Assembly (NCBI GenBank): GCA_017452265.1
Contig: JAFTMS010000007.1
Span: 62,001 to 126,000 of the forward strand
Length of the DNA stretch: 64,000 nucleotides
Direction: 5' to 3'
Source of the DNA: Bacteroidales bacterium
GTDB taxonomy: Bacteria; Bacteroidota; Bacteroidia; Bacteroidales; UBA932
The position numbers and the translations under genes were made by a program. The notes under the pieces are model-generated. The model was not told where the DNA came from and made no database searches. It saw only the letters and a list, made by a program, of their open reading frames with translations. Shown one piece after another: positions 25,824 through 64,000 of this stretch (positions within the stretch are counted from its first letter, which is position 1; every line of letters begins with the position of its first letter).

Positions 25824-26171
25824 ATGATGGACTTGACCAAAGAACAGAAAAGAATTGCCAAGAGGCTCATCGACATAGCACTTGAACGCGAGTGTGCTGT
25901 CTTCAACCTTAGAATGAAGACATTAGCAGGGCATCACCTGAACACAAAACTCACTAAGCCCAACCATCAACGCTATCTTGACATCTATAAGCTGACCACT
26001 AAGTTCGACAAGCATATAGCCGACAGATATGACGGATTGAGCGGCTCGAGATATTTCATGACTGTGGTAAATCTGTATTGCGATGGCGTCTTGAAAGACG
26101 AAGACATCATCGAATTTGACGATGAAGTCTTCATGCAGATCAAAAATATAGCAGATTGGAGGAATAGATAG
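25824..26171 (+). CDS. Hypothetical helical protein, 115 residues
   Basis: I do not recognise this protein. It has no signal peptide or membrane segment, is rich in charged helices (LTKEQKRIAKRLIDIALE) and ends with an acidic stretch (DGVLKDEDIIEFDDEVF) before NIADWRNR. Composition is more AT-rich than the flanking core genes, consistent with acquired DNA. ATGATG at the start allows either Met. It sits between the boundary repeat and a broken toxin-antitoxin locus. Confidence 0.6.
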   Translation: MMDLTKEQKRIAKRLIDIALERECAVFNLRMKTLAGHHLNTKLTKPNHQRYLDIYKLTTKFDKHIADRYDGLSGSRYFMTVVNLYCDGVLKDEDIIEFDDEVFMQIKNIADWRNR

Positions 26172-26203
26172 CGACGCAAAATGAGTTAATCGTTTTGTAG
26201 ACT

Positions 26204-26211
26204 ATTTTTGC
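26204..26211 (+). promoter_or_regulatory. -7 box of the antitoxin gene
   Basis: TATTTTTG fits TAnnTTTG, 86 bases before the antitoxin start; a TTAATC lies upstream at about 26187. Confidence 0.45.
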
Positions 26212-26296
26212 AGCGACTTCCGATGTTTTAACCATAATTTGCTGAGCTGAAATTATTGTCTCGAACTGAGGAAGATATAGTTTTCATACAGTATTC

Positions 26297-26482
26297 ATGA
26301 AGACAGTTGTTCGCGAACGCAAGATTCCTTTTGAGATTAAAGCTGAGAGCCGCAATGAAATTAATGCGAATGGTTGGAATGCAATCATGCAACTTGGTCA
26401 GCAAGCCAAAGAAGCCGGGCTACAAGACATGTCTTTGGAGGAAATCAACGCGATTATAAAGGAAGTCAGAGATGCAAAGTAA
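26297..26482 (+). CDS. Probable antitoxin (partner of a broken PIN toxin)
   Basis: 61 residues: a basic strand-forming N-terminus (MKTVVRERKIPFEIKAE) and a helical acidic C-terminus (MSLEEINAIIKEVRDAK), the usual layout of small antitoxins with a DNA-binding front and a toxin-wrapping tail. Its last codons overlap an ATG at 26472 that opens a degraded PIN-domain frame, which is the standard antitoxin-toxin arrangement and the main reason for the call. Whether it still represses or neutralises anything is unknown. Confidence 0.6.
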   Translation: MKTVVRERKIPFEIKAESRNEINANGWNAIMQLGQQAKEAGLQDMSLEEINAIIKEVRDAK

Positions 26483-26583
26483 ATATTATGCAGTCTTGAT
26501 ACCAATGTAATGGTATCACATTATTGGGAGCATCTCATATGTCAAACCCGACTAAAGTTCTGAAAGCTGTGACCGCTGGAAAC
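26472..26583 (+). pseudogene. Frameshifted, truncated PIN-domain toxin
   Basis: From ATG 26472 the frame gives MQSKYYAVLIPM then stops at 26508-26510. Restoring one lost base near 26498 gives AVLDTNVMVS, the N-terminal PIN signature whose Asp belongs to the metal-binding ribonuclease site. A second shift restores SNPTKVLKAVTAGN (26542-26583), which resembles the first helix of PIN toxins. The remaining roughly 90 residues are absent; sequence continues into an opposite-strand remnant. The toxin is certainly inactive in this form. Confidence 0.7.
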
Positions 26584-26585
26584 TC

Positions 26586-26644
26586 TCCTGCCGGATTGGC
26601 TTTCCAGCCTATCTCATTACCTTCAATACGAGTTCCTTTTCCAT
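26586..26644 (-). pseudogene. Remnant of a small winged-helix-type protein with nonsense codon
   Basis: Reverse strand MEKELVLKVMR, then TAG (26609-26611), then AGKPIRQE. Reading through the stop as Glu gives a start like small Bacteroidetes HTH proteins (ME..ILK.MR.AGKP.R). Only about 20 codons persist before the junction with the PIN remnant. The assignment is from memory of that family and is tentative. Confidence 0.35.
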
Positions 26645-26696
26645 AATCTGAATCCTTTGATTTATTACACTTATTTTGAATTATTCAAATCTATTG

Positions 26697-26704
26697 CAAA
26701 TATA
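26697..26704 (-). promoter_or_regulatory. -7 box facing the HTH remnant
   Basis: Reverse strand TATATTTG, about 53 bases before the remnant ATG. The 354-base gap 26483-26836 holds the two remnants, this box, and the promoter below; I see nothing else in it. Confidence 0.45.
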
Positions 26705-26768
26705 GGGATATATTTTTATATGCAAATACCTGCATAAAAAAAAAGTCACAACTTGACAAAAAATTTTG

Positions 26769-26776
26769 TAGATTTG
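26769..26776 (+). promoter_or_regulatory. -7 box of the coiled-coil gene
   Basis: TAGATTTG fits TAnnTTTG; TTGAC lies at 26753. The start codon is 60 bases downstream. Confidence 0.5.
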
Positions 26777-26836
26777 CTGTGAACCCACCATGCCACAGGC
26801 ATATGAAGGTTCCAGTTTAACATTAAGTTCAATGAC

Positions 26837-27148
26837 ATGTCAAAAACATTTGAAACCAATGCTCAGAAGGCCCTGACGATGGCATCTGGCATCAAGTCGC
26901 ACCTTAATGAGGTGACGCATCTCGGCATCAAGGCAGAAGGTCTTGACACCCTCGAGGCCGAGGCTAGGAAGGCAATCGAAATGATCCAGGAAGTGGATGC
27001 ATTAAGGCAGACCGTATCAGAAAAACTTCAGGCAGCAAACGAGAAACTTGCCGATGTGAAGGATCTGGCAATGGGATACCGCCAGACCATCAAGAACAAC
27101 TTCCCGATGGAGAAATGGGAATACTTCGGCATCATGGATAAAAGATAG
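26837..27148 (+). CDS. Small coiled-coil hypothetical protein
   Basis: 103 residues, almost wholly predicted helix with heptad-like Leu/Ala spacing from about residue 30 to 75 (EAEARKAIEMIQEVDALRQ). No signal peptide, no membrane helix, no recognised domain. It has its own promoter and terminator, so it is an autonomous single-gene unit. Function not known; such proteins in Bacteroides often sit in accessory regions. Confidence 0.65.
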   Translation: MSKTFETNAQKALTMASGIKSHLNEVTHLGIKAEGLDTLEAEARKAIEMIQEVDALRQTVSEKLQAANEKLADVKDLAMGYRQTIKNNFPMEKWEYFGIMDKR

Positions 27149-55126: not shown

Positions 55127-56626
55127 TTATCTTATCTCACCGATTTCATCTGCAGGTATTTCCCAATCATCTGTTCTGAATGGCACAAGAGGCTGTCCCA
55201 TTGTTGTCATAACGTTTGCGTCCTTAGGGAAATTACAGAAAGCGTAACGAACTGCAACAGGTTCAGGAACGTGTTCCGACCAAACCTCTATTCTGTTCTC
55301 CCACCAACGGTAGTTGGCCTTAGCTTTATGCCACACCTTGTCAGCTCCCGCGATTTCAAATCCATCCGGAGTGCAATAAGCATTCTTCGCATATCCTTTG
55401 AAACTGTCCGGATCGTTCCATTCATATTTCTTTGACAGATTTTCGAAACTGAGCACAAGCATGTTTCCACGCCTTTCATCATTTATAAGTTCCATCTCCT
55501 TATAACGTGGAGCAGGTCTTGGCACACCTCTCAGTCCATAATCATTAGCTAAAGCAAGATAGGCAAGGCGCTCCGCCACCTGTATTTTCTCAGACGGATG
55601 TATGCAGGTCCGGTTTCCAAGATCGGTCGTAGCAGCAATTCCGGAATATGGAATTTCCTTCATTGCCTGATATTGAGCCTCAATGACCAACGGCAGTGAG
55701 CGGAGGCCATCACCTTCGTAGGTATATGGAGCCAACTGAGTGTAATAGAACGGCATTTTGTCATCACCCCATATATTTCTCCAAAATTTAACAAGAGAAA
55801 CCATCAGATTCTTATAGTCAAACCAATTATGCCTGTTAGAACATCCCTGATACCAGATAAAGCCCTTTGCCGTGAAATCCTTTATCGGATGGATAAGTCC
55901 GTTGTATAATTTCTGTGGAGCGCTCGTATCGCCTTTACCGCTTTTCGCAATTTCATGATTGATTCCTTCAGTTGCATCAATAGCCTCTTCAGTCATCCAG
56001 CATTCTATACGGCTTCCACCCCAATTCGCAGAAATCAGTCCCACAGGAATTCCACCCAGAGCCTTTGTCAATGCCTTACCAAAGAAATATCCCACGGCAG
56101 AAAAAGAGCATACACTCTGTGGTGTTGAAACTTGCCAAGTGCCTTCACAATCGGCCTGAGGAACGTCATTCGATACACGAGGCACGTTGAAAAGGCGGAC
56201 ATTCGGGGTTTCTGACGCTGCATAAAGAATTGCTTCTGATGATCCTTCAACAGGCTGATACATGAAACCGCATACCGGCATCTCCATATTCGACTGGCCG
56301 CCACATATCCACACCTCACCGAGAAGGATATTGTCAAGAACCGTCTTCTTTCCATCACTGAAAGTGATTGTATAAGGACCGCCGGCCTCTCCTGTAGCCA
56401 CCTTCAGGCTCCAAGAACCATCATCAGCAGCCTTCACCTTGTACTTTTCTCCATTCCACGAAGTCTCTACAGTCACGGTCTTGCCGGCTTCTGCACTACC
56501 CCATAGATTCACCTCAGTATTGCGCTGAAGCACCATATTGCTTCCCAAAACGGAAGGAAGCTTCACCTCCGCCTGCATAGCAAACGGCAGAACAGCCATT
56601 ACAGCCAAAATAAACAACTTCTTCAT
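55127..56626 (-). CDS. Exported sialate O-acetylesterase-family carbohydrate esterase, second copy
   Basis: 499 residues, signal peptide to about 19. Same architecture as the gene at 45645-47096: NMVLQRNTEVNLWGSAEAG, Ser in WICGGQSNMEMP near 110, SANWGGSRIECW, GFIWYQGCSN, and His in TCIHPSEKIQVAERLAYLA. Too diverged at nucleotide level to be a recent duplication. First gene of the operon with the GDSL and GH97 genes. Together these three look like enzymes for an O-acetylated, alpha-galactosylated glycan such as pectin side chains or galactomannan; inference. Confidence 0.92.
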   Translation of the reverse strand: MKKLFILAVMAVLPFAMQAEVKLPSVLGSNMVLQRNTEVNLWGSAEAGKTVTVETSWNGEKYKVKAADDGSWSLKVATGEAGGPYTITFSDGKKTVLDNILLGEVWICGGQSNMEMPVCGFMYQPVEGSSEAILYAASETPNVRLFNVPRVSNDVPQADCEGTWQVSTPQSVCSFSAVGYFFGKALTKALGGIPVGLISANWGGSRIECWMTEEAIDATEGINHEIAKSGKGDTSAPQKLYNGLIHPIKDFTAKGFIWYQGCSNRHNWFDYKNLMVSLVKFWRNIWGDDKMPFYYTQLAPYTYEGDGLRSLPLVIEAQYQAMKEIPYSGIAATTDLGNRTCIHPSEKIQVAERLAYLALANDYGLRGVPRPAPRYKEMELINDERRGNMLVLSFENLSKKYEWNDPDSFKGYAKNAYCTPDGFEIAGADKVWHKAKANYRWWENRIEVWSEHVPEPVAVRYAFCNFPKDANVMTTMGQPLVPFRTDDWEIPADEIGEIR

Positions 56627-56662
56627 GATAACATATTGTTAACAAATTATTTACAAACTAAA

Positions 56663-57052
56663 TTATTGTATTCCATTCTGTTGTTGCAGGAAAGTCTCTA
56701 CCATTTCTTTCCGCTCAGAACGACTTACCATTTTAATGGTATTATTCATATGAGCAATATTCCAACACATCACATCATATACAATAGACGGATAGCCCAT
56801 ACTGACGACATCATCCCTATCTATTCCAAGTTTGAAGCGGCGTCCATGTACCTCTACGTTTTTCAGCATCGTATTAAAAATACTGTCCCTCAACGGCAAA
56901 TCGTCAACAGGTTTCATAATGTCTCCTTCAAACAGGCCCAATTCGCGCATATACATGGCATACTGTTCATCATTAATGACATTATCATCACTTCTACAGC
57001 ATCCCGCTGTAAAAAATATTGAAATAGCAACTATTATAAATACCCGTACCAT
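56663..57052 (-). CDS. Small lipoprotein, AT-rich region
   Basis: 129 residues. Lipobox FFTAGCC after a hydrophobic start. The rest is helical and charged (YAMYMRELGLFEGDIMKPVDDL, SERKEMVETFLQQQNGIQ). No family recognised. It overlaps the preceding gene by 19 bases, so both are one transcript. Codon use is A/T-ending, unlike the glycan operon next door, suggesting foreign origin. Confidence 0.7.
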   Translation of the reverse strand: MVRVFIIVAISIFFTAGCCRSDDNVINDEQYAMYMRELGLFEGDIMKPVDDLPLRDSIFNTMLKNVEVHGRRFKLGIDRDDVVSMGYPSIVYDVMCWNIAHMNNTIKMVSRSERKEMVETFLQQQNGIQ

Positions 57053-57738
57053 GAGTATGTTCCTCCATTTGAATCTGATGTAGTAAATTGTATTGTTCCA
57101 TAAGTATTAGACGCTGCAATCGCCACACTGAGATTCCCATTTCCCCAACGTCTGGCGGAATGTACTCCACCGAAGAATTCTGTTCTAACTTCACTCCAAC
57201 CAACCAAAGCAACATTACTAAAACAATGTCCATTAATACCTTTCATACCGTTAGGAGCAAAAATTGAGACTCCGCCAGGGACCCCAAGTGTAGCGGAAAT
57301 GGAACCACTCGGCATTGTCACGGTTTGCTCTTGCCGAGTCTTAAGAGACGGCAAGACTACTATGGAAGTCGTACTATAAGTACAATCGTCTATATGCCAT
57401 TCATTAATATTCGGATCATTTTCCCAATTTGCGATATCCTGCAATATCTGCTCATTTGCCAAATGCAATTGAGCATCCATATAATTATAGCTATCAAGAG
57501 AGTACCCTAATTCTATCGCTTCTTCTAACGAGATTTTTAGTCTGTATTGATAGTTGTCGAATTCTATATACCCAGCCTCTATTATTTTCAATGCCTCGTA
57601 TTCTGTCTCTTGAAGAGATTTAGTAAGCACCATTCCATGGTGTTTTGGAGACTCCATCATAGATAATTCCTCAAAAACATCCCTTGTACATGACATTGAT
57701 GCGAATACAATAAAAATAAACAAAAAATGTACTTTCAT
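57034..57738 (-). CDS. Hypothetical lipoprotein with Gly/Ser-rich C-terminal domain
   Basis: 234 residues. Lipobox FASMSCT near residue 16. Helical N-terminal half (ETEYEALKIIEAGYIEF, LEEAIELGYSLDSYN); C-terminal 110 residues are beta-rich with Gly/Ser/Asn (SGSISATLGVPGGVS, SDSNGGTYSWYGYL), as in surface-exposed sandwich or peptidase-like domains. One Cys (HCFSNVAL) is present. I do not recognise the family. Start at 57738 gives the better signal peptide than 57744. Confidence 0.65.
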   Translation of the reverse strand: MKVHFLFIFIVFASMSCTRDVFEELSMMESPKHHGMVLTKSLQETEYEALKIIEAGYIEFDNYQYRLKISLEEAIELGYSLDSYNYMDAQLHLANEQILQDIANWENDPNINEWHIDDCTYSTTSIVVLPSLKTRQEQTVTMPSGSISATLGVPGGVSIFAPNGMKGINGHCFSNVALVGWSEVRTEFFGGVHSARRWGNGNLSVAIAASNTYGTIQFTTSDSNGGTYSWYGYL

Positions 57739-57744
57739 AATCAA

Positions 57745-58095
57745 CGGTAAATTTTAATCAATAGCGCAACACTATCGAAATTCAAAGTTAAAAATATCTC
57801 TAAGATATTACGACTCGTTATAATCCGCACCTTTCGGCATATTCTACCTTATCAAATCGTTTATGCTTTATGTCCCAAGAGTGGCACGGTTCCGCAAAAC
57901 GGACTTTCAAGTTAAGTCTCCATACGGTCTCTTGTGTCAGGCTAACCTCATTATCGGCCGTGATTTTGCATAGTAATTTTCTATTGGTTATACGTATTGA
58001 CAAGGGTTTCTGTTATAGGGGTGGCCTCCTTCCCCTTTAACTCCTACTAACAACTACGTATGCTGTTTTATTTATCTTCTACAACTCGCATTGTA
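57745..58095. other. Spacer of 351 bases
   Basis: Contains the promoter at 57783-57790, a small palindrome ATATCT/AGATAT near 57795 and a reverse frame of 61 codons (57818-58003; ITADNEVSLTQETVWRLNL) that I cannot recognise. The frame has plausible composition and may be a remnant of a mobile or foreign gene. Nothing else seen. Confidence 0.4.
57783..57790 (-). promoter_or_regulatory. -7 box of the two-lipoprotein operon
   Basis: Reverse strand TAACTTTG, 45 bases before the start at 57738. It separates these two genes transcriptionally from the six-gene cassette upstream. Confidence 0.5.
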
Positions 58096-59697
58096 TTACT
58101 CCGCATGATTTTGTTCATAAAAGCCAGTTGCGTGATTAACTATTTGCGACACCTCCACAGACGGTACTTTTATCTTTTTGCACATAATTTCTTCTGCTAT
58201 TTTCATGGCATTTTCTATATCACCAAGAGTTTCACACAAATTCATCTTTAGATGCAATGGTCTGAAACGGTTCGGGCACATTGCAGATGCCATATCGAAA
58301 CATTCCATTGCACGTCCAAAATCATTCTGTTTCTCAGCAATCAGCCCTAAAAGCAATTGAAGATCATAATCTGCCCATAACACCTCACACTTTTCAGCGA
58401 CATCCCGCGCTTTTTCATAGTTTTCAGTATGATATAATGCATAAGCATAATTATAGAGGAAAAATCTATCCGTATTTTTCTTTGCATAAAGAGCTTCATA
58501 TTGCTGAAGCTGCTCTTCTCCATATTGCCTAGAAGCAACTATTTCAGCCCACTGCAATTCCGAGCGAATTCGAGAATTATATTCATAAGAAAACCAAATT
58601 GTAACAGCAAATATTATCAACGCTACCATACGCTTCACATGAGCATTCAACTCCGAAAGACGTTGCACGAACGGGGCATCATGCAGCAGTATAGCAATCG
58701 AATATGCCACAACAAACCATGTAAAAGGATATTTAAACGGATATGAAAACATTGCAAATACAACTACAGAAAGAAACGATAACAAAGCGACCAATTTCTC
58801 CGGGCATCTGTCGGCAAAATACCTTTTCAAGACACATACCCCTAAAACACATAAAGCGAGCACCGGGAAAATACCAAAAGAAACCCACAAATACAACAAC
58901 TCATTAAATGGATGCTGTATATTATCAGCCAACATCATCCATTTTTCATTGGGATTATCCGCCAAAAACGCTGCCTGACAATTCATATATTCCGCCGCAA
59001 ATCCACCACGTCCCATTCCCCATAGCCAATTATCGCGAATCATATCAAACGTAACATTCCATATAAGCAATCTTCCTGACGCCGAATCCATCTTAGTATA
59101 CATATAAGCAGCCAGCAACAAGACCCAGGCTATTATAAGGCCCCATTTAGCAACAGAACGTTTGGTTATGAATTTATGCCCACCAAAAATCAGGATTATA
59201 AGCACGCTTAACATTCCAGCACGAGAGCCAGACAACGCTATTGCCAGAAACATGACAAAAAAGACTATCTGGGAAGCCCCGCGAAGAATTTTATTGGCAG
59301 CAATCATACCATATAAAATAAATGGCATCATAAACACGAGAGCAGAGGCGAACCCAGCCGGGTTGTCAAAAGATCCAGTAATTCTGAACCGACCGACTGA
59401 TGGGATCAAACCTTTATTCTGCAAAAGCCCATAGACTGACATGAAACCAGCAACGGCAACAAATGCAACTATCATTGTAGCCATATTTCCGAATATGCGC
59501 AACCGGCCAGGACTTACCAATGTCTGCACGCAATTTAATAGTACCACAAACAGAATCCAGGCAAACAAGCAAATCCATTTGGGTGCAAGAGTATATTCAA
59601 CGAACAACGATGAAGAAATACAAGTCAAGCCCAATATTATAATCAAACATACAGGGAAATCTGCATATTTTTTAAAAGTTCCTGCAGTCAAGTTCAT
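58096..59697 (-). CDS. O-antigen-ligase-like polytopic membrane protein with C-terminal TPR repeats
   Basis: 533 residues. About 10-11 membrane helices up to residue 360, with the Wzy_C/O-antigen ligase loop visible as ALSGSRAGMLSVL near 165 and the large periplasmic loop with NWLWGMGRGGF and DNIQHPFNELLYLWVSFG (the conserved His-Pro-Asn element) near 265. The last 150 residues form TPR helices (FLYNYAYALYHTENYEKARD, LLLGLIAEKQNDFGRAMECF). Family members join glycans to lipid A or to proteins. As last gene of the cassette it could attach glycan to the lipoproteins encoded upstream; inference only. Confidence 0.85.
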   Translation of the reverse strand: MNLTAGTFKKYADFPVCLIIILGLTCISSSLFVEYTLAPKWICLFAWILFVVLLNCVQTLVSPGRLRIFGNMATMIVAFVAVAGFMSVYGLLQNKGLIPSVGRFRITGSFDNPAGFASALVFMMPFILYGMIAANKILRGASQIVFFVMFLAIALSGSRAGMLSVLIILIFGGHKFITKRSVAKWGLIIAWVLLLAAYMYTKMDSASGRLLIWNVTFDMIRDNWLWGMGRGGFAAEYMNCQAAFLADNPNEKWMMLADNIQHPFNELLYLWVSFGIFPVLALCVLGVCVLKRYFADRCPEKLVALLSFLSVVVFAMFSYPFKYPFTWFVVAYSIAILLHDAPFVQRLSELNAHVKRMVALIIFAVTIWFSYEYNSRIRSELQWAEIVASRQYGEEQLQQYEALYAKKNTDRFFLYNYAYALYHTENYEKARDVAEKCEVLWADYDLQLLLGLIAEKQNDFGRAMECFDMASAMCPNRFRPLHLKMNLCETLGDIENAMKIAEEIMCKKIKVPSVEVSQIVNHATGFYEQNHAE

Positions 59698-59700
59698 AAG

Positions 59701-61605
59701 CTACTTCCAATTTATTTCATTACAATGTGTAAATATACGATGTTGACGTCCTCTATTAAGACATTTTATATATAATAACGCATAGCGTGGTACATCGTGA
59801 AACTCCACATATGAATCTACGGCAGTCATTGTTTCATGAAGTTCCCAGCTCCTTCCTGTATTATAATAAAGTTCATATCTATCTCCAGGAAACACATCAT
59901 TACCATCGCCACGACGATAATATATCACTTTACCCAATGTAACCGGATAAACAAAATCAAAAATCACTGAAACAGAAACGTCATCCGCTTCTATACGAGA
60001 AAATGTCAAAGGATCGTCATCAATAAGTCGCGCATGATTGATATAATAAGAAGTCTGAGACTCCTCCCAAAGTACTTTCGGGTAAAGGCGCTTACCGGAG
60101 TGATCGTAAAAGCACAATTCAGCAAAATCACTCGGCTCTTTAGCATTTACCGATAAGCTATAATATCTATATGAACCTATTTCTTTGACCACTATACTAC
60201 CAGCAAGAGCTGATGGGAAATCAAAAATCTTATCAGGAGTCTTGTCATTGCTACCATCTAAACCATACAAAGTTCCTCCGCTCAGAAATGAACGTATACC
60301 ATAAACATCAGCAGACCGCGGATATTTTCTGGTTATAATAAGTGACGACTTATCGGTCGAATCCATCGAATAATAATGGACTTCACCATTTAAAGACAAC
60401 TCAAACGGGCATGAAACCTGCTTGACTCTGTCATGGGCATACTCTACCAGACAATATGTTCCGCCTACTGCAACGTCAGCAAACTTAAGAGTTCCTTTAC
60501 GGTTAACCGCAATATCCACCGGAATCCAATCGTAATCATCAAATACAGCAAGATATAAGTATTCATGTTTAGAATCCGTGTGCAATTCGAACTCTGCAAC
60601 TCTACAATACTCGGCAGTGACATCTGTCGTAAATATATACTCCAATGATGGTGGCAATTCAATTCCGGCATCACATGCTTCTTTTAAAATCTCACGAGGT
60701 TTCCATGAGAAACGATAAACTTTAGGCATACGATAGTCATTTTTGCGAAAATATCCTGGATATGCGTCATTGGGATCCAATGGTTCGAAAGCTTCAGGAG
60801 TTCGTGTCGAATTCAAAATGTTAATCCAATAATGCACACCATTACGATTCATCCAGTTCGGAGTGTAATCTATGCTGGCAGGTATTCCATTTGCCCTACA
60901 GTACATAAGTTCTAAAGCTGCCTTTTCATAGCAATCGGCATACGGAGCATTTAAAATGGCTCGCGGCACAAGCACAGGTATAATATCCAAATGAGAATAA
61001 GATTTTACATTTGTGTTCCGGACAATATAATCATGCAATCTCATATATCCATGTCTCACACTATTTTCAAACAAAGAAATCTCATTCCAAAGCGTATCAG
61101 ACGACCAATCTATCACAGAATAATCTTTCCAATCATCCAACATCTGCCCTTCGAGACACTTATATGGCAAAACATATTCACAAAACTCGTCAAAATTCAG
61201 ATGCTGTAGATATTCTCCGGTTTTCCAACGTACAAAAGCCGCATCAATTTGCGAGATAAGATAATCCTCCGTCAACAATTCCTCATCATTTTTTAATCTG
61301 ATCTTTCCGACATATTTACGAAGAATTTTATCCGCTTCTTCACGCAACGAGGGCTCATCAAGATTTAACAAAAACAGCGAATCTATGGCATTACAATAAT
61401 CACAATATGGTACAATTTCAAACGACTGATGATACTGCATATTCTCAATAAGATATGCAGCAGCCGCCTGTTTCATAGGCTCACAAATATAATGCGCGAT
61501 TACATTCCGGTATAATTCATTCTGTTTAGCCGGAGGACAAGAATTCAAATGTGTAAATAAGACAATTAAAATGACAAGTAATCTTATTCTATAAGATACC
61601 ATCAT
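59701..61605 (-). CDS. Transglutaminase-fold lipoprotein
   Basis: 634 residues. Lipobox THLNSCP. N-terminal helical part (about 25-220), then a transglutaminase-like core: Cys in APYADCYEKAALELMYCRA near 232, His in GVHYWINILNS near 265 and Asp in FEPLDPNDAYPGYF near 285 fit the Cys-His-Asp triad. The C-terminal 300 residues are beta-sandwich-like (two or three domains, the last resembling a discoidin-type fold: RIEADDVSVSVIFDF). Start at 61605 overlaps the DUF1573 stop by 4 bases. Enzymes of this fold crosslink, cleave or modify amide bonds in proteins or peptides. Gap to the ligase-like gene is 3 bases. Confidence 0.8.
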   Translation of the reverse strand: MMVSYRIRLLVILIVLFTHLNSCPPAKQNELYRNVIAHYICEPMKQAAAAYLIENMQYHQSFEIVPYCDYCNAIDSLFLLNLDEPSLREEADKILRKYVGKIRLKNDEELLTEDYLISQIDAAFVRWKTGEYLQHLNFDEFCEYVLPYKCLEGQMLDDWKDYSVIDWSSDTLWNEISLFENSVRHGYMRLHDYIVRNTNVKSYSHLDIIPVLVPRAILNAPYADCYEKAALELMYCRANGIPASIDYTPNWMNRNGVHYWINILNSTRTPEAFEPLDPNDAYPGYFRKNDYRMPKVYRFSWKPREILKEACDAGIELPPSLEYIFTTDVTAEYCRVAEFELHTDSKHEYLYLAVFDDYDWIPVDIAVNRKGTLKFADVAVGGTYCLVEYAHDRVKQVSCPFELSLNGEVHYYSMDSTDKSSLIITRKYPRSADVYGIRSFLSGGTLYGLDGSNDKTPDKIFDFPSALAGSIVVKEIGSYRYYSLSVNAKEPSDFAELCFYDHSGKRLYPKVLWEESQTSYYINHARLIDDDPLTFSRIEADDVSVSVIFDFVYPVTLGKVIYYRRGDGNDVFPGDRYELYYNTGRSWELHETMTAVDSYVEFHDVPRYALLYIKCLNRGRQHRIFTHCNEINWK

Positions 61606-61900
61606 AGTACATCGCATTTTAGATTTATGATTGACAACGGTTGTTGAACGGCATCCGAGAATACATATATTTCACGCCTAAGTTCTCCTTTTCTATCCGG
61701 AATAAACTTAAAGCCTAATACGAGTTCATTGCCGGGATATATTTCATACGAATGATTTTCATGTAAAAGCTCCACACATGAACAACTTGTTCTGATATTT
61801 TAGACATTTCAGAAAATGGAGCATTATATAATATACTTTGCTTACACGCACTGACCATTAATAGTGTCAAAAATATGTTAAAGAGCCTTCGCATTTTCAT
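61602..61900 (-). pseudogene. DUF1573-type lipoprotein, frameshifted or internally deleted
   Basis: Frame A starts at 61900 (MKMRRLFNIFLTLLMVSACK, a lipoprotein signal) and stops after PAMNSY at 61715. Frame B, open to the stop at 61602-61604, reads TSCSCVELLHENHSYEIYPG and then LVLGFKFIPDRKGELRREIY, which is the DUF1573 core with its CxC motif. The switch occurs near 61785-61800. About 60 residues normally before the CxC are missing. It is either a decayed gene or a programmed-frameshift candidate. The overlaps on both sides (ATGA at 61897-61900 and at 61602-61605) show it was part of the coupled set. Confidence 0.72.
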
Positions 61901-62244
61901 TTATCTGTATTTTGTTGTAAAACACCATCTTGTATAAGTTCATCACGGAGACGGTAATATGAATCAAGAAGCAATCGTGACTCCATGATTTCATCATTAG
62001 CGTCTCGTATAGATTGGACTTCAGACACAGATGATTCATCTATCTCTTCAAAAATCACGTTCAAGACTTCATCATCTAATAGTTGCCGCGAAATCCATGT
62101 ATAAGAAATTCCCTTTGCATCCAGCCCGCCAAGATACAAAGAGTATTTTCCCTCTTTATTTGTAATTATCACATTTACAGAGCCACTTTCAATCGCGGCG
62201 TTGGCAGAAGAGGAAACAGATGATAAAACAGCAAATCCTTTCAT
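61897..62244 (-). CDS. Small MKGF-start protein 2
   Basis: 115 residues, no signal peptide, no recognised family. MKGFAVLSSVSSSANAA, then a beta-rich middle (SVNVIITNKEGKYSLYLGG) and an acidic helical end (VIFEEIDESSVSEVQSI; LLDSYYRLRDELIQDGVL). The end aligns with the neighbour at 62241-62579 (KFAEMDELSTPMESV; LDSFRQLENFLKEKGLL), so the two are paralogues. The frame can begin at 62310, but ATG 62244 makes a 4-base overlap with the upstream stop and mirrors the neighbour's start. Confidence 0.7.
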   Translation of the reverse strand: MKGFAVLSSVSSSANAAIESGSVNVIITNKEGKYSLYLGGLDAKGISYTWISRQLLDDEVLNVIFEEIDESSVSEVQSIRDANDEIMESRLLLDSYYRLRDELIQDGVLQQNTDK

Positions 62245-62579
62245 AACAATCCTTTTTCTTTCAAGAAGTTTTCCAATTGACGAAAGGAGTCCAGTTTCGA
62301 CATAGGACATCTAATACTTTCGTCTGTAACACTTTCCATTGGAGTGGATAATTCATCCATTTCTGCAAACTTAATCTGGAAACTATCTTTCACATTCATC
62401 GGAGTAAATTTTTGCCAGATATTACGTTGTTTTGCATCATAATCCACACTATCAATCATCACAAAATTACGTTCCCCCCGACCGGCATTCTGATAATGAA
62501 GATGAATTGTACACAAGCCACCGTCTTTCACACCGACTTTAATACTCTGTCCTTTTGATGTAATAACAAATCCTTTCAT
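62241..62579 (-). CDS. Small MKGF-start protein 1
   Basis: 112 residues. Starts MKGFVITSKGQSIKVGVKDG, a beta-rich middle with a Cys (GGLCTIHLHYQ), and an acidic helical end shared with protein 2. No export signal, so presumably cytoplasmic, or a substrate carrying an unrecognised leader. Its ATG overlaps the stop of the 297-residue lipoprotein (ATGA at 62576-62579). The paired, conserved starts are the reason for preferring 62579 to 62594. Confidence 0.7.
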   Translation of the reverse strand: MKGFVITSKGQSIKVGVKDGGLCTIHLHYQNAGRGERNFVMIDSVDYDAKQRNIWQKFTPMNVKDSFQIKFAEMDELSTPMESVTDESIRCPMSKLDSFRQLENFLKEKGLL

Positions 62580-63469
62580 GCTGTAGAACCACATTGGTGT
62601 GTATTATACGGCGGCCAGACTCCTTGCGTCAAACAATATTCCAAGCATTTTGAACATCCATCAGGAATTGGAGAAAAACAACGTTCGAATTGTCTCTGGC
62701 AATACTCGAAATTTCCATTGGATATCGATGATTGTGTTTTACACACAACAACTTCATAATATAAAATTCCAGCAATTACGACAGTTGCAATCGAAGCGAC
62801 AATCTCCCCAGTAGGCGTAGGCTCACCAACTGCAATCGTCCAAATTGTCTCTAACAGAATACGACAAGTCGCCCCATCGGAAGCTTCACTCCTTGTCTTA
62901 ATCCTTTTCAGCCCGCTATTAGGAGTTGGCACCATAAGGCCACTTTCTTCCAAATACTGAAGTTCTTGGGCTCCATAGTATAAAGCTGCAATAACGTTTT
63001 GTAAGCGTTCTTGCTGTATTTCCGGGACATAAGTCAATATTTCATCCGCAAGACTTGAGAGACGAAACATCATATCACCATAAGATGTACTGCTTGCACA
63101 ATCATCGACAATACGATTGATATACTGAATCTGTATTTTCGTTAACGTCTTATAAGCAGTAATGAAATCTTGTGGTGACATAGCATAAGACTCTTTTCCG
63201 ACCGTATTTTTCGTAACCGGGATAGGAACAATCTGTGATATATCATTGAAATAACGCTGCTGAAATTCCACAGACGCATCAGCATCAGAATAATCTATAC
63301 CCATTTTGTGTAAAGACACACCAATAAGACGAATATCCGAGGCAACTGCTTTTCCAAAAACCACCGAGGTCTCAGACAATTTCTCTTCAATTGATTCCGA
63401 TGATTCATAGCGTGAACATTGGCAAAACAATGTCAATAATAACACAAAGGTAAAATGGTATTTTTTCAT
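62576..63469 (-). CDS. Lipoprotein with hydrophobic segment and Cys-rich tail
   Basis: 297 residues. Lipobox LFCQCS at 13-18. Helical domain of about 170 residues (EEKLSETSVVFGKAVAS ... ERLQNVIAALYYGAQEL), a short linker (TRSEASDGATC), a 20-residue hydrophobic segment (GEIVASIATVVIAGILYYEV, near 220-242) and a C-terminal tail with eight Cys (VCKTQ, YCQRQFERCF, GCSKCLEYCL, HQCGS). No family recognised. It could be a precursor whose tail is cleaved, or a disulfide-stabilised surface protein. First gene of the cassette; no TAnnTTTG box was found upstream. Confidence 0.7.
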   Translation of the reverse strand: MKKYHFTFVLLLTLFCQCSRYESSESIEEKLSETSVVFGKAVASDIRLIGVSLHKMGIDYSDADASVEFQQRYFNDISQIVPIPVTKNTVGKESYAMSPQDFITAYKTLTKIQIQYINRIVDDCASSTSYGDMMFRLSSLADEILTYVPEIQQERLQNVIAALYYGAQELQYLEESGLMVPTPNSGLKRIKTRSEASDGATCRILLETIWTIAVGEPTPTGEIVASIATVVIAGILYYEVVVCKTQSSISNGNFEYCQRQFERCFSPIPDGCSKCLEYCLTQGVWPPYNTHQCGSTA

Positions 63470-63589
63470 ACGTACAATTCGTTATAACGTGTCTATAAAC
63501 AGGGGCTTCATAAATTCACAAACAGGAATTCCTAAAACAACCAAGTAAAAGGCAAGCTCTTTTGGAAGTTTAAATCCGAAATGAGAATT

Positions 63590-64000
63590 TTATTGCTCTA
63601 TGACGATATTCTTGCAGTGATGATGGACGAAGGAATTCTTTTCTTCGAATGTGTAAGGGTAGTCGTCGGTCATCTCTATAGTGTTGTTGCGGAAAGTCAG
63701 GTCTTCGACGCTGAAGAGATTGAGGATGCGCGGATCAAAGACACGGAATGTATTGTTCTCAATAAGAATTCCCCTATGATAGCCGCGTTCTGCCTTGTCA
63801 AGCTCCGGAATGCGTGTGCCGACTGCGATGCAGGCTGCTCCCCATGTAGGATATCCGAAATTACCGTTTTCAAACACATTGTTGCGGATGATCACTTCAC
63901 GTACGCCGGCCTGCTCGAACCAGAAGTTTCCGTCTCCCTCAAAAAGGATGGCCGCTCCCGGAATATGGAAATAGTTGTCTTCGATGACCATGCGTCCCCT
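63590..64000 (-). CDS. Right-handed beta-helix protein, C-terminal part, GH110-like alpha-galactosidase (cut by right edge)
   Basis: At least 136 codons, open through the right edge, ending at 63590. Beta-helix rungs are visible as Asn-rich repeats (VIEDNYFH, IIRNNVFEN, LIENNTFRV, TFRNNTIEM) spaced about 22-40 residues. The stretch AAILFEGDGNFWFEQAGV followed by TWGAACIAVG matches what I remember of GH110 alpha-1,3-galactosidases from Bacteroides, which act on blood-group B and related glycans. The catalytic part lies mostly outside. GC content returns to core level here, marking the end of the AT-rich cassette. Confidence 0.75.
   Translation of the reverse strand, partial: RGRMVIEDNYFHIPGAAILFEGDGNFWFEQAGVREVIIRNNVFENGNFGYPTWGAACIAVGTRIPELDKAERGYHRGILIENNTFRVFDPRILNLFSVEDLTFRNNTIEMTDDYPYTFEEKNSFVHHHCKNIVIEQ

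Follow-up and report, generated by a model that had tools for sequence, protein, structure and literature searches.

We analysed a 64,000-nucleotide (nt) stretch of DNA from a Bacteroidales bacterium (contig JAFTMS010000007.1, positions 62,001 to 126,000), which at its full length we call the window, and focus here on a leftward run of genes encoding several lipoproteins, a transglutaminase-like protein (TG) and an O-antigen ligase-like membrane protein (LIG). An original prediction made from the sequence alone had described six genes coupled by ATGA overlaps, and this layout holds: the overlaps lie at 62576-62579, 62241-62244, 61897-61900 and 61602-61605, and a gap of 3 nt separates TG from LIG. 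The run is AT-rich as stated, with a GC content of 0.34-0.40 in its genes compared to 0.50 for the window. The AT-rich DNA does lie between glycan genes, although it extends further than had been given, reaching about position 56627 and including two extra lipoprotein genes, the nearer of which is separated from LIG by 357 nt. The features of the locus, with lengths in amino acids (aa), are as follows:

56627..63589, no strand assigned: probable AT-rich insertion in a glycan-degradation operon, with approximate limits drawn from the GC content and from the neighbour pair in the genome G355
62576..63469, minus strand: CYSR, a 297-aa lipoprotein with a lipobox, a pro-domain, the junction RIKTRSE at residues 189-195 and a C-terminal region with 8 invariant Cys
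62241..62579, minus strand: MKGF protein 1, 112 aa, no signal peptide by eye, modelled as beta-rich with a C-terminal helix
61897..62244, minus strand: MKGF protein 2, 115 aa, no signal peptide by eye, homolog of MKGF protein 1
61602..61900, minus strand: DUF1573 lipoprotein gene read as a broken remnant, with the signal peptide and the C-terminal TSCSC tail in different frames
59701..61605, minus strand: TG, a transglutaminase-like lipoprotein of 634 aa with a discoidin/carbohydrate-binding-like C-terminal part
58096..59697, minus strand: LIG, a Wzy_C (O-antigen ligase-like) membrane protein of 533 aa with C-terminal TPRs, in which the catalytic His of the family is missing
57034..57738, minus strand: 234-aa lipoprotein with the junction SLKTRQE, a candidate second cargo
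56663..57052, minus strand: 129-aa lipoprotein overlapping the gene of the 234-aa lipoprotein

The surrounding genes encode GH97, a GDSL esterase, a SASA acetylesterase and a GLAA-like beta-helix protein. In G355, homologs of both immediate neighbours (62 % and 64 % identical) are found side by side with a 4-nt overlap (locus L321), while the same two neighbours are separated in the window by about 7 kilobases (kb) at 0.34-0.40 GC. Because the flanking glycan genes touch in G355, we consider that the AT-rich block is probably an insertion, or acquired island. The empty site is seen in this one genome, and the neighbour pair is not kept in the four further relatives retrieved by means of the esterase. 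No target-site duplication was seen at the insertion limits, where 7-nt repeats only were found.

We searched 299 family genomes for TG at an E value of 1e-3 or better and found relatives in 67 of them, 37 at 1e-10 or better and 30 weaker ones that are mostly other transglutaminases. Using the TG alignment as query against public records, the best 80 of 579 relatives provided 78 further TG loci in Bacteroides, Parabacteroides, Alistipes, Prevotella, Sphingobacterium, Dawidia and others; the same search with the window TG alone as query gave no match. TG relatives are present in 6 plasmid records. Thirteen self-built profiles were scanned over the TG loci and over 60 background stretches of 20 kb from 16 genomes, and families were counted within 8 kb of TG at 106 non-redundant loci (121 TG loci minus 15 that are at least 95 % identical).

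LIG is found at 63 of these 106 loci, a signal peptidase I (SPase I) at 32, a NVEALA peptide (PF14055) at 31 and any propeller at 48. A redox-type partner (any of the thioredoxin-like TRX, DUF1573 or the TlpA-like TLPA) is found at 46 loci, the fulvocin C-related family (FULV) at 7, MKGF at 6 and CYSR at 3. Altogether 40 loci have a cargo family, that is NVEALA, FULV or CYSR, and 87 have any of the 12 families. Among the 50 TG loci with 5 kb or more of sequence to either side, 37 have LIG, 26 a redox-type partner and 22 a cargo family. For comparison, the 60 background stretches contain TG, LIG, NVEALA, TRX and the propeller family propA once each and TLPA and DUF1573 twice each, with the remaining six families, including SPase I, FULV, CYSR and MKGF, at zero.

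Individual relatives display how the parts are combined. All six families of the run are present at L107 (genome G377), where TG (cut by the contig end), DUF1573, LIG, CYSR and two MKGF genes form one run. A Prevotella metagenome-assembled genome (L140) unites the CYSR type and the fulvocin type in a run of TG, DUF1573, CYSR, four MKGF genes, DUF1573, a fulvocin-related lipoprotein and three TlpA-like proteins. Bacteroides finegoldii (NZ_OY725911) has TG, DUF1573, a protein that the public annotation calls 'bacteriocin fulvocin C-related protein', then TlpA, a pair of MKGF genes and an O-antigen ligase; this record (NZ_OY725911.1), titled 'plasmid 9', also carries prfB and a phosphate porin gene and may be a chromosome fragment. 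On the Phocaeicola vulgatus plasmid pPvulCL10_1 we find NVEALA, a propeller, a redoxin, lepB, an O-antigen ligase, a truncated TG copy, TG, NVEALA and a propeller, and a P. dorei plasmid carries a like set plus insertion sequence genes. The truncated copies (L331:7863-8432 in NZ_CP096966.1 and L332:7261-7830 in NZ_CP072250.1) are annotated as hypothetical protein and keep the lipobox; on each of the two Phocaeicola plasmids the truncated copy immediately precedes the full TG.

Recurrence of the six genes, which the original prediction had expected of a system, is thus found in part: they do run together in relatives, but the cargo is exchanged and DUF1573 is broken in the window, so that the set is modular and a fixed six-gene cassette is rejected. 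To some extent the genes also occur apart, with TG missing from the fetched stretch of 11 of the 17 MKGF genomes (some on short contigs) and TG and LIG found also with quite different cargo. A promoter scan of the locus found 40 sigma-70-like sites compared to 26.9 expected, which does not discriminate for separate internal promoters, and no TTTG-spacer-TAnnTTTG promoter site is present from 56400 to 64000. We conclude that TG plus LIG as a recurring Bacteroidota module with exchangeable, mostly Cys-rich secreted cargo is well supported.

A direct search for CYSR found relatives in 2 of 151 genus genomes, the genome of the window being counted, and L107 and L140 were added via neighbours. The lipobox Cys and the 8 tail Cys are invariant in all four members (window, L103, L107 and L140). 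CYSR resembles the fulvocin C-related proteins (NF033852) in being a lipoprotein with a pro-domain, a similar junction and an 8-Cys C-terminal tail, and the genes of both lie beside TG, LIG, DUF1573 and TlpA-like genes. The 'bacteriocin fulvocin C-related' model NF033852 matches proteins beside TG and LIG at L038 (E 8e-21) and L063 (E 6e-28). In contrast, it gave no match up to E 1 (cut-off 35 bits) to the CYSR proteins of the window, L103 and L107, and hhalign of CYSR against L038 has a probability of 0.3 %; CYSR as a member of the fulvocin family was consequently rejected. Two further candidates, geobacillin-26 (E 0.048) and metallothionein (E 0.24), were rejected as far under the cut-off. 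At L261-L265 the fulvocin-related model matched in the pro-domain alone, with no Cys-rich tail; these proteins may be partners or decayed precursors.

Judged by sequence, one short junction is common to these otherwise unrelated lipoprotein cargos. It reads RIKTRSE, SIKTRSE, KIKTRSE and RLKGGSE in the four CYSR members, RIKTRSE, RLKSGAE, RLKSGGE and TLKTMGE in fulvocin-related proteins, and RLKSGSE, KVKTRSE and SLKTRQE in other lipoproteins of TG loci, SLKTRQE being the junction of the 234-aa protein of the window. The pattern [RKSTA][LIV]K[STG][RGKM][SAGQT]E has 14 matches in 1414 distinct open reading frames (ORFs) of 122 TG loci, while 200 shuffles gave a mean of 1.06 and a maximum of 4; the background gave 1 match in 1026 ORFs, inside a longer protein. 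When Asn is allowed for S/T/G, these matches number 15 in TG loci versus 2 in the background. The 14 matching proteins are 214 to 364 aa long, and their junctions begin between residues 131 and 226; 10 of these proteins pass a crude lipobox test and 4 are lipoprotein-like by eye. There are 4 to 8 Cys after the junction in 12 of them and 1 in the 234-aa protein and in L173. If the pattern is left aside, [LIV]K is found shortly before the first Cys in 9 of 10 TG- or LIG-linked fulvocin-type tails (L144 is the exception), compared to neither of the two complete fulvocin-type tails from genomes without a strong TG (L257 and L260). Six of the 18 fulvocin-type rows listed have no Cys tail, and these are excluded from the junction count.

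The tail of the 234-aa lipoprotein, with its single Cys, is not Cys-rich. Its pro-domain has weak relatives in 4 other genomes of the 299 searched (E 3e-5 to 5e-4), and one of them, L327, adjoins LIG and has the junction RLKNGTE. The small lipoproteins of L327, L329, L330 and positions 56663-57738 of the window have a common pro-domain pattern (like YVLNLSEEDAIALGISKFDY) and different tails.

Taken together, we hypothesize that the locus encodes a modular Bacteroidota maturation and export system for Cys-rich secreted proteins that are released, perhaps bacteriocins, located here on an acquired 7-kb island. We give this reading a probability of about one half. Maturation of a surface lipoprotein, already suggested in the original prediction, is in our view the best reading, and the genes recur together in G377 (L107), L140 and NZ_OY725911. 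The core would consist of the TG lipoprotein and a histidine-less Wzy_C/TPR membrane protein. Frequent extras would be a dedicated SPase I and a partner of redox type, whether thioredoxin-like, TlpA-like or DUF1573, and the exchangeable cargo would here be CYSR and perhaps also the 234-aa lipoprotein. In the order of events that we infer, the precursor would be lipidated and brought to the surface with its pro-domain holding the tail inactive, and the tail would fold with up to four disulfides. An Arg/Lys-specific protease, either the C11 enzyme of the genome or TG itself, would then cut the common junction, between KTR and S in CYSR, freeing a tail that would most likely be antibacterial by analogy with the fulvocin C-related proteins, BcpT and Fab1.

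BcpT of Phocaeicola, a signal peptidase II (SPII) lipoprotein, is processed at LTR sites by C11 proteases resembling fragipain; Fab1 of B. fragilis is cut by fragipain itself, between R200 and A201, and Bft is cut at QTR (PMC9308784, PMC8406203). Like CYSR, BcpT and Fab1 have an N-terminal pro-domain, an Arg site before the C-terminus (active in BcpT and Fab1, where it is LTR and R/A respectively), a C11 protease in the genome and a small gene directly downstream, and BcpT and CYSR are both lipoproteins. KTR occupies residues 191-193 of CYSR, between the pro-domain and the C-terminus, and this site (before S) and that of the 234-aa protein (KTR before Q) resemble the LTR of BcpT and the QTR of Bft; cutting is predicted from these sequences. 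The C11 protease of the genome of the window is a 496-aa ORF on contig C14 (PF03415, 75.8 bits, cut-off 25.8), and release of the tail by proteolysis is plausible. Unlike BcpT, which has a 300-aa fragment with 3 Cys, CYSR has about 100 aa after KTR with 8 Cys. The likeness considered here is one of layout, and the consulted parts of PMC9308784 and PMC8406203 describe no TG/LIG module with BcpT or Fab1. From its position, as for BcpI and RFab1, the 129-aa lipoprotein is a possible partner or immunity protein.

Several points weigh against this reading. Because some of the TG loci also served to train the profiles, the TG-locus figures are inflated, although the contrast with the background is still large. 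No cargo family lies within 8 kb at 66 of the 106 TG loci, to which short contigs contribute, and none of the 12 families at 19 of the 106 or at 7 of the 50 with 5 kb on both sides. When families are ignored, secreted-like ORFs with at least 5 tail Cys number 22 of 448 in TG loci versus 2 of 135 in the background, where both are iron-sulfur-type by eye; this contrast is weak. CYSR matches neither the fulvocin model nor L038, and 5 of 9 genomes with an over-cut-off fulvocin-related protein have no strong TG. The DUF1573 partner is broken both in the window and in the genome G356, so that either it can be dispensed with or the locus is in decay. Three members of the junction set had already been seen when the pattern was drawn up. 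Moreover, the Arg (KTR) is found in some junctions only, others being KSG, KGG or KNG; a TR-specific protease would therefore be insufficient, and a Lys-accepting protease, or TG acting on Lys, would be needed. This protease account of the non-Arg junctions is the weakest link. Finally, the antibacterial nature of CYSR, the 234-aa protein and the NVEALA peptides is putative and drawn from analogy.

It is conceivable that the hypothesis can be taken further, to an undescribed, Bacteroidota-wide and partly plasmid-borne TG/LIG maturation and export system serving polymorphic Cys-rich antibacterials (NVEALA peptides, fulvocin C-like tails, CYSR and others), in which the junction [RKS][LIV]K[ST]x[SAGQ]E would route unrelated lipoprotein cargos and the 'ligase' would be a peptide-handling scaffold. 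We propose this wider version tentatively and regard it as rather doubtful. If the reading is right, one testable module would account for a set of 'hypothetical' secreted Cys-rich proteins of gut Bacteroidota, and the combination of TG, LIG and junction would offer a sequence handle for new bacteriocin candidates.

The TG protein itself matches PF01841 with an E value of 1.7e-5 (25.5 bits, over the cut-off of 23). C225 and H258 are invariant in 25 of 25 aligned rows, and from their spacing and from family knowledge we take them to be the catalytic pair; where a third catalytic residue would be expected, following H258, the same alignment shows no invariant Asp or Asn. The C-terminal part of the TG family profile matches the Protein Data Bank (PDB) entry 2yb7 (E 5.6e-28) in two pieces whose order is swapped. 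The invariant Cys and His make a cross-linking activity of TG possible.

TG could accordingly serve cell-surface assembly and not release: it would join the Cys-rich protein, for instance via the junction Lys, to a glycan or neighbour protein, or simply hold it, while LIG would be a scaffold, the discoidin-like domain would bind glycan and the product would stay as an adhesin or shield. The conserved Cys and His are consistent with this, as is the match of the C-terminal part to solved carbohydrate-binding domains, and the junction Lys is kept in all four CYSR proteins and in 9 of the 10 fulvocin-type tails linked to TG or LIG. In RHS polymorphic toxins, inactive transglutaminase domains have been proposed as peptide-binding surface anchors (PMC3482391). 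On the other hand, an Asp or Asn kept throughout after the His was not seen, small Cys-rich tails and a dedicated SPase I suit release better, and no anchoring motif was noticed, no systematic search for one having been made. We consider surface assembly unlikely. Like the RHS toxins, which occur in Bacteroidetes among other bacteria, TG shows a transglutaminase fold in a toxin-type setting; in those toxins the triad is lost within the toxin protein (PMC3482391), whereas TG is a separate lipoprotein that keeps Cys and His.

The second core protein, LIG, matches PF04932 (Wzy_C) with an E value of 8.7e-15 (55.2 bits, cut-off 31.7) in addition to its C-terminal TPRs. When aligned with 7TPG, a structure of WaaL, LIG retains the Arg of SVGVR, and the His of the HN motif, which we take from the alignment to be the catalytic His of the family, aligns with Phe. 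The Arg aligning with that of SVGVR is invariant in 17 of 17 LIG proteins. Counted per protein, the catalytic His position is F in 56, Y in 10 and L in 3 of 69 LIG proteins, a number that includes redundant copies and one background locus; the non-redundant 60 have 49 F, 8 Y and 3 L. As a control, 30 loci of other genomes gave 18 PF04932 ORFs. Twelve of these fall in the LIG family, all with F, while of the 6 outside it one (L282, genome G010) has the HN motif and 5 gave no readable position.

The original prediction had named glycosylation among the possible functions of the system, and one alternative retains it: LIG would glycosylate the lipoprotein as a PglL/PglS-type O-oligosaccharyltransferase. 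The PF04932 domain and the invariant Arg fit this idea, most candidate PglL genes adjoin possible target proteins (PMC3643930), and the window LIG with a few relatives has another His two residues before the lost one (QHPFN). However, that upstream His is absent in most relatives. R288, H338 and R215 of E. coli WaaL and R298, H349 and R224 of PglL, with H338 and H349 as the catalytic His, are named as important and conserved (PMC3643930), and the H324A variant of PglS is inactive (PMC12800693). WaaL, PglL and PglS share with LIG the Wzy_C domain and one conserved Arg, while LIG differs in its replaced His and its C-terminal TPR repeats. Since all 69 LIG proteins have another residue in place of the His that WaaL and PglL require, a glycan-ligating role of LIG is unlikely. 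We rate glycosylation of the lipoprotein by LIG as very unlikely, and the earlier suggestion is not supported. If our reading is right, a gene often annotated as O-antigen ligase is probably not one.

The NVEALA loci share TG and LIG families with the window and have small secreted cargo mostly with Cys, together with 6-bladed propeller, redoxin and lepB genes; they differ, as on pPvulCL10_1, in having NVEALA peptides, propellers and SPase I in place of CYSR and MKGF. No NVEALA peptide was matched in the window locus (L031). Arrays at L032, L033 and L058 (genomes G041 and G149) consist of NVEALA peptides and TolB-like propeller lipoproteins in alternation, giving the look of peptide-partner pairs. 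The ALA at the end of the NVEALA motif resembles a site for signal peptidase I, and these loci often include an SPase I gene. Alternatively, then, the Cys-rich proteins may be signalling or metal-binding peptides with cognate surface receptors (propellers, thioredoxin-like lipoproteins) and not toxins. The arrays such as L032 and L033 speak for this; the lipoprotein versions, with their fulvocin-related, bacteriocin-type precursor layout, speak against it, and we consider it quite unlikely.

Under the maturation and export reading, the place of the two MKGF genes immediately after the cargo gene would be fitting for an immunity or chaperone function; the 11 of 17 loci with no TG in the fetched stretch weigh against this. 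That the pair is paralogous, as predicted, is confirmed by a profile built from members outside the window, which matches both (E 1.1e-22 and 3.8e-16). The AlphaFold model of MKGF 1 (predicted local distance difference test 91.1) has 7 strands and a C-terminal helix, and its comparison with PDB gave no match (best E 0.45). MKGF genes are found in 17 of 398 family genomes, 6 of which have TG in the fetched stretch, once as a remnant and once cut by the contig end. Some MKGF loci without TG lie between lipoprotein and glycosidase-like genes.

The intact DUF1573 CxC lipoprotein of the original prediction could not be upheld. An ORF begins with the ATG at 61900 but runs only to 61715; its 61 aa are a lipoprotein signal and nothing else, within a region (61602-61900) of 299 nt. 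The DUF1573-like part (TSCSCVELLHENHSYEIYPG and on), which contains the CSC noted earlier, is in a different frame with no ATG of its own. It matches the C-terminal end of the intact proteins of L107 (395 aa) and L140 (346 aa) by tblastn (E 1.3e-16 and 3.1e-14), and the PF07610 score of the remnant is 12.8 bits, under the cut-off of 26.1. We read 61602-61900 as a decayed remnant; a sequencing error in the draft genome might account for the frame shift, though not for the lack of the middle part. The ATGA overlaps at 61897 and 61602 therefore flank a broken gene. In G356 (L103:1-700), fragments from a different part of DUF1573 and a C-terminal TG remnant lie beside a transposase-like ORF (named by eye), and the LIG, CYSR and both MKGF ORFs remain open.

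Anti-phage defence and phage origin were also considered and rejected: the 7 proteins have no PADLOC match up to E 0.01 and a single weak PHROG match of no known function (MKGF 1, E 0.0083), and no phage record with CYSR was found.

The absence of a described system with this set, as stated in the original prediction, holds for the open-access literature searched by title and abstract, with most subscription papers outside that search; there, the parts are ordinary and their recurring combination was not found described. The gene set is not described in the consulted parts of PMC3482391 or PMC10434189, and no paper in the open-access literature searched uses NVEALA as a word. The iron-responsive genes of B. 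thetaiotaomicron include BT0662 and BT0664, listed as O-antigen ligase family protein and 6-bladed propeller (PMC10434189); they are two locus numbers apart and possibly belong to such a locus in a laboratory strain. The genome G081 has 13 Wzy_C matches, several TG matches and fulvocin-related genes, making it a rich source of cargo. Elsewhere in the window, a further short AT-rich stretch is found at 26001-27000, with a GC of 0.40 between flanks of 0.51 and 0.49.

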